DNA from: Kitasatospora atroaurantiaca
GTDB lineage: Bacteria > Actinomycetota > Actinomycetes > Streptomycetales > Streptomycetaceae
Reading direction: 5' to 3'
Assembly: GCF_007828955.1 (NCBI RefSeq)
Contig: NZ_VIVR01000001.1
Coordinates: 6,510,001-6,574,000 of the forward strand
DNA: 64,000 bases
Position numbers and translations under genes: made by a program. This document shows, piece after piece, positions 1,896 through 6,627 of this stretch (position 1 is the stretch's first letter; each line of letters opens with the position of its first letter). The notes under the pieces are model-generated. The model was given only the letters and a program-made list of their open reading frames with translations, had not been told where the DNA came from and searched no databases.

Positions 1896-4757
1896 TCAGT
1901 GCAGGGTCGGCACGGCGCCGCACTCGACCACCGTGAGCTCCACACCGGGCAGGCCCCGGCCCCACCGCTCCGCGATCTCGGTGAGCCGGGCCGTGTCCGG
2001 CGGTGTGTGACCGAGGCCGATCGCGTACCGGGTCACCGCCGGTCCGGTCTCGAACGGGCGGGGCCAGGCATGGGCGTCCGCTGCTCCGATGCCCTCGATG
2101 GCGGTGAGCAGGGCCCGGATGCGACCTCTGACGCGGCCCACGGTCTCCTCGAACTCCTCGGCGTGGACGGGGTGTACGGCCAGGACCGCCCAGGCCGCGT
2201 GCCGACGGTGCAGGGGTGGGGGCGAGAGCAGCTCGGGCCATGGGTCGGCGCCGGTCTCGGCTGCCGCTTCCAGGATCTCCCAGGCTCGGTACAGCTCCTG
2301 GGTCAGCAGGTCCAGGCCGCCCCAGCCGACCTGCTCGGTGCAGCTTCGCACCGGACGGGTCGGCGTCGTGACCGACACCGCCGCCGAGGGCGCCTGGTCG
2401 GTCGTGGTGGTGAGGCCGACCGGTTCCCGCCAGTCCCAGGCGGCCCAGGTGCCGAAGAAGTGCCGGAGCAGCTCATCGTCCGCAAGGTCCCCGGCCTCGC
2501 GCGTCGTCCGAGCGGCCAGCACGGACCAGGCAAGCCCCGGCAGTCCGCCGAACGGGGCCGAGTCGAGGCCGCGCGCCTTCGCCCATGCCTTCACCTGCCG
2601 GGCCAGCCGGGCGAAGTCGGCGTGATGGCCGACCGCGGCGCGCACCGCGTCCGCGTCGCTGACCGCGCTCAACGCGATGGCGGCAGCCTCGCCCAGCTCG
2701 GCGCGACGGGCCACCGCCTCGGCCGGGGCGAGCGCTCCGGTGCCGACCACGACGAGGTCGACGTCCAGACCACCGGTGTCCGGATCCCCGATGCTCAGCC
2801 GTAGGCCCGGCACCCTGTTGCCGGTCACCTGCCTCATCCGGGTGGCGTCCGGCACCGCCTCGGCGACCCGCGCCAGGACCTCCGACATGTCGACGTCGCC
2901 CGGGAGCGCCGCCACGAGGTCGAGGTCCGCCCCGGCCAGGGCACAGCCCATCCGCCGCGATCCGACGACGTGGACGACTCCTTCGTGCAGCGCCTCGGAG
3001 ACACGCTGGGCGATCTGCTGCGCGCGAGCGTCCCGGGCGTCGTCGCCGTCGGTGGCGGGCTTGCCCGTGCCGGCCTCGGGAAGCCAGCGGAGCTCGCCCG
3101 TGCCCAGCGCGATCGTGGCCCGTGGCCGCATCGGCTCGCCGCCCCGGCGGGAGAGCAGGACAACGTCCCCTACTCGTGCCGACATGGTGCCGAGCCGGGC
3201 GGCGCACTCGGCGGCGAGCTGCCGCGGCTGCCGGGTCCGGCCCAGGGACAGGTGCGGGGTGAAACCCTCGGAGCGACCACGGCAGCGCGGGAACCGCTCC
3301 TCCAGCGCCCGGTAGAGCTCGGCCCAAGGCTTGTCGCCGGCCGCTGCCGGGTCGAGCCAGACCGTGGCGTCCTCGCGGTGCCTGAAGCTGTGCACCCCGG
3401 CCAGCCGGGCGGTGAACGCCGCAGTTCCGGCCGCCGCCGCGGCGAGCAGTGGGGCCGCTCGCTCGAAGTCGGACTCCGGCACGAAACCGAAGAGCAGATT
3501 GACGTGCGGCGGCCACCGGCGGATCTGGGGATCGTGCTCCCAGCGGATGTCCTGGATCGTCGGCCAGAGTTCCTCGGGCGGCATCCACGCCACCGCCGTG
3601 CGGGCCGTCGGTGCGGCGTCGAGGACGTCGGCGGGCTCGGCCCCACCGAAGCTCAGTTCCGCTTCCACACCGTAATGGTCCGACACGAACAGCCCGTCCG
3701 GCGCGGGCGAGTCGCCTCGAAGGCGGGCTCGGGTCGCCTGCGGCCCGCCCGCACGCAGCAGGACCCGGTCCAGCCGGGAGGCCCGGCCGGACAGTGAGGA
3801 CACCGCAGCCAGTGGATTGACGCCCGGGTCGAACGTGGGGGTCCGGTCCTCGGGCCCGTGGGCCTGGGTCCAGGCGTCCCGCATCCCGAGCACGGCGGCC
3901 GGGCCGTCCGGGCCGTCGCTGCCGTCGTTGAAGTCGCCCACCAGGATCAGGTTGCCGTCCACGCCGGCCAACCCCTCGGTGATTCGGGCCAGTTCGGCCT
4001 GCCGCCGGGCTGCTCCCTGGTCGGAGTGGTCGCTGCTCAGGTGGGTGGCGGCCACCACGAGCGGGCCGGAGGCGGCCTGGACGGTGACGGCGGTGACGGC
4101 TTTGTGCGGGCCGAGGAGGTGGTACCCCGCCTCACGTACGGGCAGCCGGCTGAGCAGCAGCAGCCCGCTGTCCTCGACGTCCCGCCCGGTCGGGTCGGTG
4201 CCCAGGGTGTAGCCCGCGCGGACCCAGGGGGCCTGCGTCAGCATGGCGAGCAGCCCGGCCTCGACCTCCTGCAAGGCGATGATGTCCGCGTCGGCCTCCT
4301 CCAGAGCCGCCAGGAGCAGTGGGCGGCGCCGGGCGGTGTCGATCCGGTCGCTGTCGTACCGGTCCCACAGGGTGTTCCAGGTCAGCACCCGCAGGCTCGC
4401 CGTGGCCGGCGCGGCCGTCGTCGGTGTGCCGTCCGCGGGGCGCCACCCGGCGGCGGGCTCCCACGTGTACGGCGTCCTGGCCGTGAAGAAGGGCGCCCGT
4501 AGCCGACGCGGGTCCCTCACCCGGCCGGCCTCCATCGCATCGAGCCGGTCCACCCCGGCGGACCGGTCCCACACCAGCTCGCCGTCCGCCTCGACGAACA
4601 GCACCCGGTGCCAGGGGATGTCGCCTCCCGGGGCGAAGGTGTCGAGCGGTATCCGCTTGGGGGCGGCGCCGCGCTGATAGACACCCAGCACGAACCTGCC
4701 CGGGTCGAACCGAGGGTCCCAGCGCACCCGGTGGTAGATCTCCTCGCTCGTGCGCAT
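1896..4757 (-). CDS. Multidomain RNA-repair protein: MJ1316 + EEP + 2H phosphoesterase + nucleotidyltransferase
   Basis: A 953-aa protein. Residues 1-75 match the MJ1316 (former DUF504) RNA cyclic-end recognition domain ([33 protein letters not shown]). Residues 121-370 are an endonuclease/exonuclease/phosphatase fold with intact motifs (WNTLWD, LQEVE with E164, ATHL, VGDFND, RLDRVLL, SDHYGV). Residues 385-560 are a LigT-like 2H phosphoesterase with HVN at 418-420 and HLS at 502-504. Residues 575 to the end resemble archaeal/eukaryotic CCA-adding or poly(A) polymerases, with GSRRMG at 599-604, DLD at 611-613 and a third carboxylate at DVD 665-667. The likely job is recognising and healing cleaved RNA 3' ends and perhaps rebuilding lost nucleotides. 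The ATG overlaps the stop of the upstream ligase gene (TGATG), so the two proteins should be made together. Domains are firm; the pathway is inferred. Confidence 0.88.
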
Positions 4758-6520
4758 CAGACGCCCTCCCCCTCGAGCGAGGCAGCTCCACCGAGCGTGC
4801 CGGCGACGTCTCCGACGTCTCCGTCCGGCCCGACGTACCAGGTGCGGTGCGCCTGGCCGGGGTACGGCGGGGTGAAGCGGTGCAGCTGCGAGGCGAGCAC
4901 GTCGGGTGGCACTGGGTGGGCCCGGCCCGCGTTGCGGCGGGTCAGCTCGGCCTCCTCGACCAGCACGACCGCGTGCGTGACCAGGGCGTCGCGGCGCTGC
5001 GCCACCGCCTGGACCAGGGACCGCTGGTGCTGGTTGAGAGAGGTGGCGTCCCACACCACGGTTGCGCCGGGGGCCAGGGCGCGGTCCAGGCGGTCCAGAC
5101 CCGCCCGCAGGACGTCCCCGTTGTCCCGTTGGTCCGCGCGGGACCCTCGTGCCGCGCGCAGGTCGTCGAGGCTGACGTGCGCGTCGACACCGGGGAGACG
5201 GCCCGCGAAGGTGCTCTTCCCGCTGCCGGACGGACCGACCAGGTGGATCAGCCGCGGAAAGCCCCCGGACCGCCAGCGCCAGACGGCCGCCACGGCCTCC
5301 TCGACGACGGCGATCCGCCCCCGGGCGTACGCCTCCCGCGCCTCGGCCCAGCACCGGTCTGCCGCCTCGGTCTCCAGGCCGGAGAGCGCCTCGCGCAGGC
5401 CCGCCCGCAGCGGCTCGAGCGGCGCCTCGCCGAGCAGGCCGGCGTCCTCGGAGTACAGTGCGGACCAGTCGATCTGCGCACGCGCCTCGGTAACTTCCGT
5501 ACCTGCACTGCCGTTCAGGGCTGCTGCGGCGACCGCGTGCAGGACTCCGAGATCGGCGGCGAGCGACATGCGTACCAGACCGGTCCGGCGCTCCTCGTCC
5601 GGGTAGGGGCGGTGCAGGCGGGGGTGCAGCCCGACGAGATCGGCGACGCGTCGGGCCAGCGGCAGGCCCAAGGGCCCGATCAGCCGGGGCGCCAGCGAGG
5701 CCCGCCGGGCGTCGCGCAACAACGCGGCCAGCACACCGGCCAGCCGCGCGTCGCCCGAACGCCCCAGCGCATCAAGGCTGGCGGAGACATCTGCCACGGC
5801 TGCCTCGGCGGAGGCCGGCTCCTCCCCGGCCATCCCCACGGCCGCGAGCAGGGCGGGCACATCGGGGGCCGCGCCCGAACGCACCGCCCACAGGGCGGCG
5901 GCCGGGGCCAGCCCGTTCTCCACGACGGCGGCGTGCATCCAGTGCGTGTCGGTCTGTACGTGCCTCGGGCGCACCCACTTGGCCACCCGCCGGGTGAACT
6001 CCGCCCGGCCGAAGCCCTCGACCGTCCGGACGACGTACCCCTCCTGCCGTTCGGTGTCCAGCCGCAGTGCTCGCAGTGCCCGCTCGTCGAAGGTGCCGCG
6101 CCACAGCACACGCGGCGTCGGCACTCCCCGACGGCGCAGGAAGAGCACCGTCCGGTCCCAGTCCAGGCAGCGGTCCCCGCCGTCCCAGACGGAGAACCCG
6201 TAGAACCAGCTCTCCAGCTCCTCGTACGCGATCGAGTGCCGCGCGTACAGGTTCTCCCCGCACACCCGCCACCCCTGCGGGATCGCCGCGCCGATCCGCC
6301 CATGCAGGGCCTTGACCCAGGCCCGTGACGGATGGTGTGCGGAATCCAGCGAGCGGGCGTGCAGCCCGTCCGGATAGAGGGTGGTGTTCTCCCCGTCGAG
6401 CTTCTCGGTGACCACGACCTCCTGGCCCCGCAGCCCTGACAGCTCACCGACCCGTACGTCGTCCGACGCCGCGCCCGGAGACCAGGGGAGATGCGGCGTG
6501 CGGGGGTACTGCACGTGCAT
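4757..6520 (-). CDS. RNA ligase fused to a polynucleotide-kinase-like P-loop domain
   Basis: A 587-aa protein. The N-terminal 200 residues carry nucleotidyltransferase ligase motifs: motif I EKLDGEN with the adenylated lysine at K40, [10 protein letters not shown] at 88-97, motif IV EGYVVR at 160-165 and motif V AKWVR at 180-184. This set is typical of the RNA_ligase family. Residues 230-410 are an Ala-rich helical region I do not recognise. Residues 424-587 form a P-loop kinase: Walker [10 protein letters not shown] at 429-437, LDDL at 451-454, VVWDATSLN with D491, and an Arg-rich lid around 528-533. The expected chemistry is phosphorylation of 5'-OH RNA ends followed by ATP-dependent sealing. 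It is the first gene of a two-gene operon and about 107 bp separates it from the next gene. No phosphatase domain is present; the partner supplies the EEP and 2H domains. Confidence 0.9.
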
Positions 6521-6627
6521 GATCCGCTCCCGGCGACGAGGTTGTGACTCGCCACAATGTACGAACCCGAGGAGTGCGAATCCATCGATTAACAGCCACC
6601 GCGTGGCAGTCCTGAAAGCCCCGGGCC

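Follow-up and report, generated by a model that had tools for sequence, protein, structure and literature searches.

A conserved two-gene operon of actinobacteria that probably encodes an RNA end-healing and sealing system

Several systems for the repair of broken RNA have been described. In the Pnkp/Hen1 system, RNA is healed and sealed by kinase, phosphoesterase and ligase activities, Pnkp being one protein with a metallophosphoesterase and Hen1 its partner. The fungal and plant enzymes Trl1/AtRNL bring ligase, kinase and 2H cyclic phosphodiesterase together and work with Tpt1/KptA, and T4 Pnkp-Rnl1 combines a 5'-phosphate/3'-OH ligase with a kinase. RtcB/RtcA/RtcR repairs bacterial RNA breaks bearing cyclic phosphate and 5'-OH. 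The DRB0100-DRB0099-DRB0098 operon of Deinococcus radiodurans encodes an ATP-dependent ligase, PARG and HD-Pnk. Here, an operon of two genes, A and B, is described from a 64,000-nucleotide stretch (the window) of the single 7.87 Mb chromosome of Kitasatospora atroaurantiaca (contig NZ_VIVR01000001.1, positions 6,510,001 to 6,574,000). Judged by their domains, A and B carry nearly everything for cleaning and rejoining broken RNA, and the operon is probably a dedicated two-protein system for healing and sealing RNA ends.

Gene A lies upstream of B and the two overlap by one base within TGATG (Table 1). The first-pass annotation, made from the sequence without database searches, had located both genes and this coupling correctly and had named six functions: kinase, RNA ligase, MJ1316, EEP, 2H and nucleotidyltransferase. 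All six are present; the profile searches of both proteins that it proposed (RNA_ligase, AAA_33, MJ1316, EEP, 2H and poly(A) polymerase) matched throughout, with Pfam scores far above cut-off in A and B. What it overlooked was the middle region of A, an HD domain of about 210 amino acids.

Table 1. Features of the A/B operon, in positions of the window
Feature	Residues	Position	Strand	Description
Gene A	587 aa	4757..6520	minus	RNA ligase, degenerate HD domain and 5'-OH polynucleotide kinase
Gene B	953 aa	1896..4757	minus	MJ1316, EEP, 2H and poly(A)-polymerase-type nucleotidyltransferase
A, DRB0100-type RNA ligase domain	1-205	5906..6520	minus	PF09414, 2.6e-34 (aa 34-183)
A, degenerate HD domain, HD-Pnk type	205-418	5267..5908	minus	all-helical; profile comparison
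A, P-loop 5'-OH polynucleotide kinase	423-562	4835..5254	minus	AAA_33, 6.5e-22 (aa 424-552)
B, MJ1316 domain	1-65	4563..4757	minus	PF04457, 1e-18; signature WDxRxD, IPWHR, WDR
B, EEP phosphatase/nuclease	121-369	3651..4397	minus	PF03372 (Exo_endo_phos), 1.4e-18 (aa 125-361)
B, 2H phosphoesterase	384-552	3102..3608	minus	PF13563 (2_5_RNA_ligase2), 3.2e-32 (aa 393-540)
B, eukaryote-type (class I) poly(A)-polymerase-like nucleotidyltransferase and C-terminal domain	572-953	1899..3044	minus	PAP_central, 5.3e-11
Putative bipartite promoter		6555..6593	minus	GTTAATCGATGGAT-N17-GTACATTG; about 35 bp before the A start codon

The pairing of A with B and their domain content are not the product of chance, given the number of relatives, their adjacency and the conservation of catalytic residues. 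A scan of 84,980 species genomes returned 339 relatives of B; such relatives occur in Streptomyces, Kitasatospora, Embleya, Nonomuraea and other actinobacteria. Examined were 85 loci, the window among them: those of the best 80 of the 339 and five more from actinobacteria. In 81 of the 85, A immediately precedes B. The junction is a one-base overlap in 46 cases, a gap of 0-10 bp in 30, a longer overlap in four and a gap of 50 bp in one. Within 70 species of the host genus, full-length B occurs in 39, every one of which has A (39/39); 30 lack both genes and in one A accompanies a damaged B (Fisher 5.6e-19 for co-occurrence, the species not being independent). The first-pass annotation had staked its proposal beforehand on the two genes recurring as a pair in other genomes, and they do. 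Active-site residues of the five enzymes (ligase, kinase, EEP, 2H and nucleotidyltransferase) are essentially invariant across 70-86 homologs, which speaks for every one of the activities being in use.

No third conserved member of the operon was found in the loci examined, the neighbouring genes varying between lineages. A and B lie antiparallel between tuf and rpsJ, in the str/S10 ribosomal region, in L033, L054 and around ten further loci of Streptomyces. A role in normal RNA maturation or splicing, in which a specific host RNA would be cut and rejoined much as in tRNA splicing by yeast and plant Trl1, draws some credit from such apparently stable chromosomal positions between tuf and the S10 operon, from a ligase-kinase-2H logic that parallels Trl1 and from the KptA gene of the host. 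It is improbable nevertheless: 30 of the 70 species examined in the genus lack the operon, which is hard to reconcile with an essential maturation step, and no non-coding RNA family was found near the operon, the search for RNA families extending over 12 kb around it.

The ligase domain of A belongs with the 5'-phosphate/3'-OH RNA ligases of PF09414, having the KxDG and other nucleotidyltransferase motifs: motif I (K40-LDG), motif IV (EG-VVR) and motif V (AKWVR) are invariant in about 70 homologs. It is 58% identical to DRB0100 of D. radiodurans (58-66% to DRB0100-type ligases over 201-205 amino acids) and 64-66% identical to ligases on other Deinococcus plasmids. Trl1 has a ligase of another family, and A and B differ further from Trl1/AtRNL in splitting the functions over two chains and in adding MJ1316, EEP and poly(A)-polymerase-type domains. 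In five loci (L056, L065, L080, L086 and L092) a second RNA ligase gene occurs 1.1-1.8 kb downstream of B on the opposite strand; its product resembles Deinococcus DRB0094 (PF09414 with the PHA02142 OB-fold).

Ligases of jumbo phages (L120, L121 and others) are roughly 40-53% identical to residues 1-207 of A. They share the 5'-phosphate/3'-OH chemistry and differ in being the ligase domain alone, with no fused HD-kinase, and B is absent from phages. This occurrence of the lone ligase domain in phage genomes suggests an arms race around ligase chemistry and, with the patchy distribution of the operon in the host genus, gives some colour to the proposal that the pair is a defence or toxin module in which B, by its EEP, 2H and tailing activities, would break down or tag RNA of the phage or the host, with A as an accessory. 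That proposal is very improbable, as there was no relevant match in a defence-system library (PADLOC), there are no conserved neighbours and no viral copies of B, and the operon itself includes a sealing enzyme. A phage or mobile origin was also considered and rejected, B being found neither in phages nor in viral contigs.

The kinase domain at the other end of A has the motifs GxxGSGKS, D452/R455 and R529, and its P-loop and lid are invariant or nearly so in homologs. Its profile matches the kinase of Clostridium thermocellum Pnkp (6e-10) and T4 Pnk (4e-6), and the best Foldseek matches are bacterial Pnk. Although the kinase domains of A and of the Pnkp/Hen1 system are related (1.1e-9), A is not a member of the single-protein Pnkp family, scoring 37 bits against TIGR04075 with its cut-off of 750. 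The kinase of the Deinococcus operon acts on 5'-OH ends (PMC11833690, citing PMC1997131).

Between ligase and kinase lies a domain that aligns with the HD part of Deinococcus and Catellatospora HD-Pnk (hhalign probability 97.3%, E 7e-11), with an hmmsearch score of 23 bits against no more than 5.7 for 200 shuffled sequences. Every aligned A lacks the His/Asp motifs for metal binding that the Deinococcus and Catellatospora proteins have, and Pfam, which detects HD in the relatives, finds none in the middle of A. An AlphaFold model of A (mean predicted local distance difference test, pLDDT, 82) has this part all-helical. The HD assignment comes from sequence profiles and not from structure, since Foldseek with A gave kinase-type matches among those listed. 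Residues 276-561, the HD-like and kinase part, align to DRB0098 at 36%.

In Deinococcus an HD-Pnk gene lies downstream of the ligase gene, in D. radiodurans with the PARG gene in between, and the ligase and kinase of A match DRB0100 and DRB0098. In contrast to that operon, A fuses ligase and kinase, its HD motifs are lost and there is no PARG gene; nor has a protein like B, with MJ1316, EEP, 2H and poly(A)-polymerase-type domains, been seen there. A is most readily understood as a ligase/HD-Pnk fusion with a dead phosphoesterase; it would descend from a fused DRB0100-type ligase and HD-Pnk in which the HD phosphatase decayed. We propose that, with the phosphatase decayed, A alone could not heal 3' ends and would depend on B, which probably supplies this function. 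The motif-less HD domain would also explain why B has two phosphoesterases.

B opens with an MJ1316 domain whose signature is invariant in the family and which is the sole MJ1316 domain encoded in the host genome. The AlphaFold2 model of B has a mean pLDDT of 84 and is poor over this domain. The EEP domain that follows has the motifs TWN, LQE, GDFN and SDH, and N128, E164, D275, N277, D330, D360 and H361 are kept in 86 of 86 homologs. Among EEP enzymes, TDP2 acts at 5' ends and ANGEL2 is a 2',3'-cyclic phosphatase. The phosphatase activity of ANGEL2 is required for RNA processing (PMC9525292), and by analogy this enzyme is the functional precedent for what the EEP domain of B may do, though not its closest relative.

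The 2H domain has the two expected motifs, HxN/T (H418) and HxS/T (H502), with both histidines in 86/86; the first is HxN in 80 homologs and HxT in six. 2H enzymes of the LigT type normally leave a 2'-phosphate, so the EEP domain or the KptA of the host must still remove a phosphate. Shorter relatives of B also occur: one with MJ1316 and 2H only on a Streptomyces plasmid (L011, 4298-5161), two checked chromosomal copies with 2H only (L122 and L123) and, in 17 of the 70 genomes of the genus, short matches that share 56-74% identity with the 2H region of B.

The last 380 residues of B are, by their sequence and predicted fold, a eukaryote-type poly(A) polymerase, of a kind otherwise typical of animals and fungi. 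Fold and catalytic aspartates are both present: the motif is GS-D611xD613-D667 with metal ligands kept in 84-86 of 86 homologs, the profile matches human poly(A) polymerase gamma at 2.8e-36, and Foldseek finds mammalian and yeast poly(A) polymerases at template-modelling (TM) scores of 0.59-0.68. B differs from the canonical eukaryotic enzymes, whose fold and metal ligands it shares, at two positions. Y237 and N239 of bovine poly(A) polymerase, which we take to be ATP contacts, correspond to D732 and A734 in B, which do not vary within the actinobacterial family. Given these two substitutions, the actinobacterial enzyme may not add A's, and the name 'poly(A)' should not be assumed. The first-pass label of nucleotidyltransferase is right as to the fold. 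A homolog of B on a Calothrix conjugative plasmid (AP018209; L010, 8995-11970) has the four domains in the same order at an overall identity of 31%, keeps both Y and N, and has a nucleotidyltransferase closer to true poly(A) polymerases (1.7e-38). It stands alone, A not being found on that plasmid.

From this domain content we infer a series of reactions and their order, with RNA as the substrate and damage as the trigger. The MJ1316 domain of B would recognise the end of an RNA, probably one with a 2',3'-cyclic phosphate, and the 2H domain would open this phosphate. The EEP domain would then remove the remaining phosphate to give a 3'-OH, in an order and with products that are provisional; KptA of the host could remove a 2'-phosphate if the EEP domain does not. 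Before sealing, the nucleotidyltransferase may put back nucleotides lost at the 3' end. The kinase of A would phosphorylate the 5'-OH of the other fragment, and its DRB0100-type ligase would join 5'-phosphate to 3'-OH through a Lys40-AMP intermediate. The first-pass annotation went further, to a repair machine that looks complete and could act on tRNA or rRNA cleaved by toxins or phage-induced nucleases; the completeness and these substrates are both conjectural.

The operon has its own promoter sequence. In 66 of 69 loci the region before A contains GTTATTCGnTGGAt, followed after 17 or 18 bp by cTACAGTg, usually about 33 bp ahead of the start codon, and leave-one-out scans place this motif as the best site of the whole locus in 65 of the 66. 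Identity between loci is 66% in the boxes, 45% in the spacer and 33% in the flank. With its TAnnnT -10 box and unusual -35 region, the motif resembles a promoter. The site at 6555..6593 is the sole match to it in the window and the sole exact match in the 7.87 Mb genome, where one spacer length was searched; other sites in the genome have two mismatches, about half of them being copies of one identical repeat, and no regulon sharing the promoter was found. A dedicated regulator is likely from such a pattern, and no conserved neighbouring gene encodes one. Known DNA-damage promoters (LexA box, RecA-NDp/PafBC and SigR) were rejected as candidates upstream of A, scoring no higher than shuffles; the exception in the search for DNA-damage boxes was a loose palindrome in two loci. 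Weak remnants of the promoter lie near the starts of B where it stands alone in Catellatospora.

Several observations weigh against an RNA repair system made of A and B. The closest solved structures to the EEP domain are those of TDP2 (profile 7e-8; Foldseek TM about 0.8) and not ANGEL2. The closest tested ligase, DRB0100, formed an AMP adduct at Lys40 from ATP and yet sealed neither DNA nor RNA in assays, and its operon was first noticed as induced by gamma-irradiation (PMC1997131) and was proposed for DNA repair. The likeness to TDP2 and the induction by radiation favour an alternative in which A and B would mend breaks in DNA, or in DNA and RNA alike, with ligase and kinase working as in the Deinococcus operon, the TDP2-like EEP domain with its TWN/LQE/GDFN/SDH motifs removing 5' adducts and the polymerase filling ends; the 58% identity of the ligase to DRB0100 adds to them. 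We consider DNA repair unlikely, because DRB0100 ligated no DNA alone or with its operon partners (PMC1997131), no SOS or RecA-NDp/PafBC box lies upstream of A, and the MJ1316, 2H and poly(A)-polymerase-type folds are those of RNA-end recognition and RNA tailing. These three folds of B all point to RNA. The failure of DRB0100 to seal on its own could mean that such ligases need a partner, or another substrate.

RNA repair by the pair must also accommodate B without an adjacent A, in four actinobacterial genomes and on the Calothrix plasmid. These solo B genes, in Catellatospora and Calothrix, imply that B does not strictly need a neighbouring A in every genome. The Catellatospora genomes with such a B have related kinase genes elsewhere, and in Catellatospora sichuanensis an unfused ligase gene adjoins an HD-Pnk gene elsewhere in the genome, an arrangement that counts in favour of the proposed system.

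A last point against it is that the host is already equipped. Its genome encodes a full Pnkp (2509469-2512018, 1353 bits), two RtcB and KptA (at 2509469, 4188719, 5493641 and 5808025), so the A/B operon would be an additional system. The first-pass annotation had held it to be distinct from Pnkp/Hen1 and RtcB, which is supported, the host encoding those elsewhere; RtcB differs in ligase and chemistry, and PF01139 (RtcB) has no match in A or B.

Burroughs and Aravind described fusions of MJ1316 to RNA repair domains in 2016 (NAR gkw722), according to the passage citing them in PMC6514570, and the exact A/B architecture may already be listed there. The literature searched, which did not reach that paper, contained no experimental study of the A/B pair. 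The parts are known individually, and no laboratory test of their combination appears to exist. Four observations are, as far as checked, new: the dead HD domain, the changed poly(A) polymerase positions, the figures for co-inheritance and the operon's private promoter.

A more ambitious view can be offered tentatively, as a possibility that may well fail in part. The operon would be a third bacterial RNA repair architecture, a ligase/HD-Pnk fusion whose phosphatase was lost and which came to depend obligately on B with its four domains. B would read the end, heal it in two phosphoesterase steps and rebuild it with a eukaryote-type polymerase of altered nucleotide choice, all under a private promoter with its own regulator.

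The decayed HD domain offers a concrete and testable reason why A and B should need each other, and it may help to explain the inactivity of purified DRB0100, if such ligases depend on a partner. Finding a eukaryote-type poly(A) polymerase in a repair protein of bacteria is relevant to how that family of enzymes arose. The coexistence of A and B with Pnkp and RtcB in one cell raises the question of which damage the pair serves, and the conserved promoter is a direct route to the inducing signal. If the proposal is true, antibiotic-producing bacteria would possess a self-contained system that heals, rebuilds and seals RNA.

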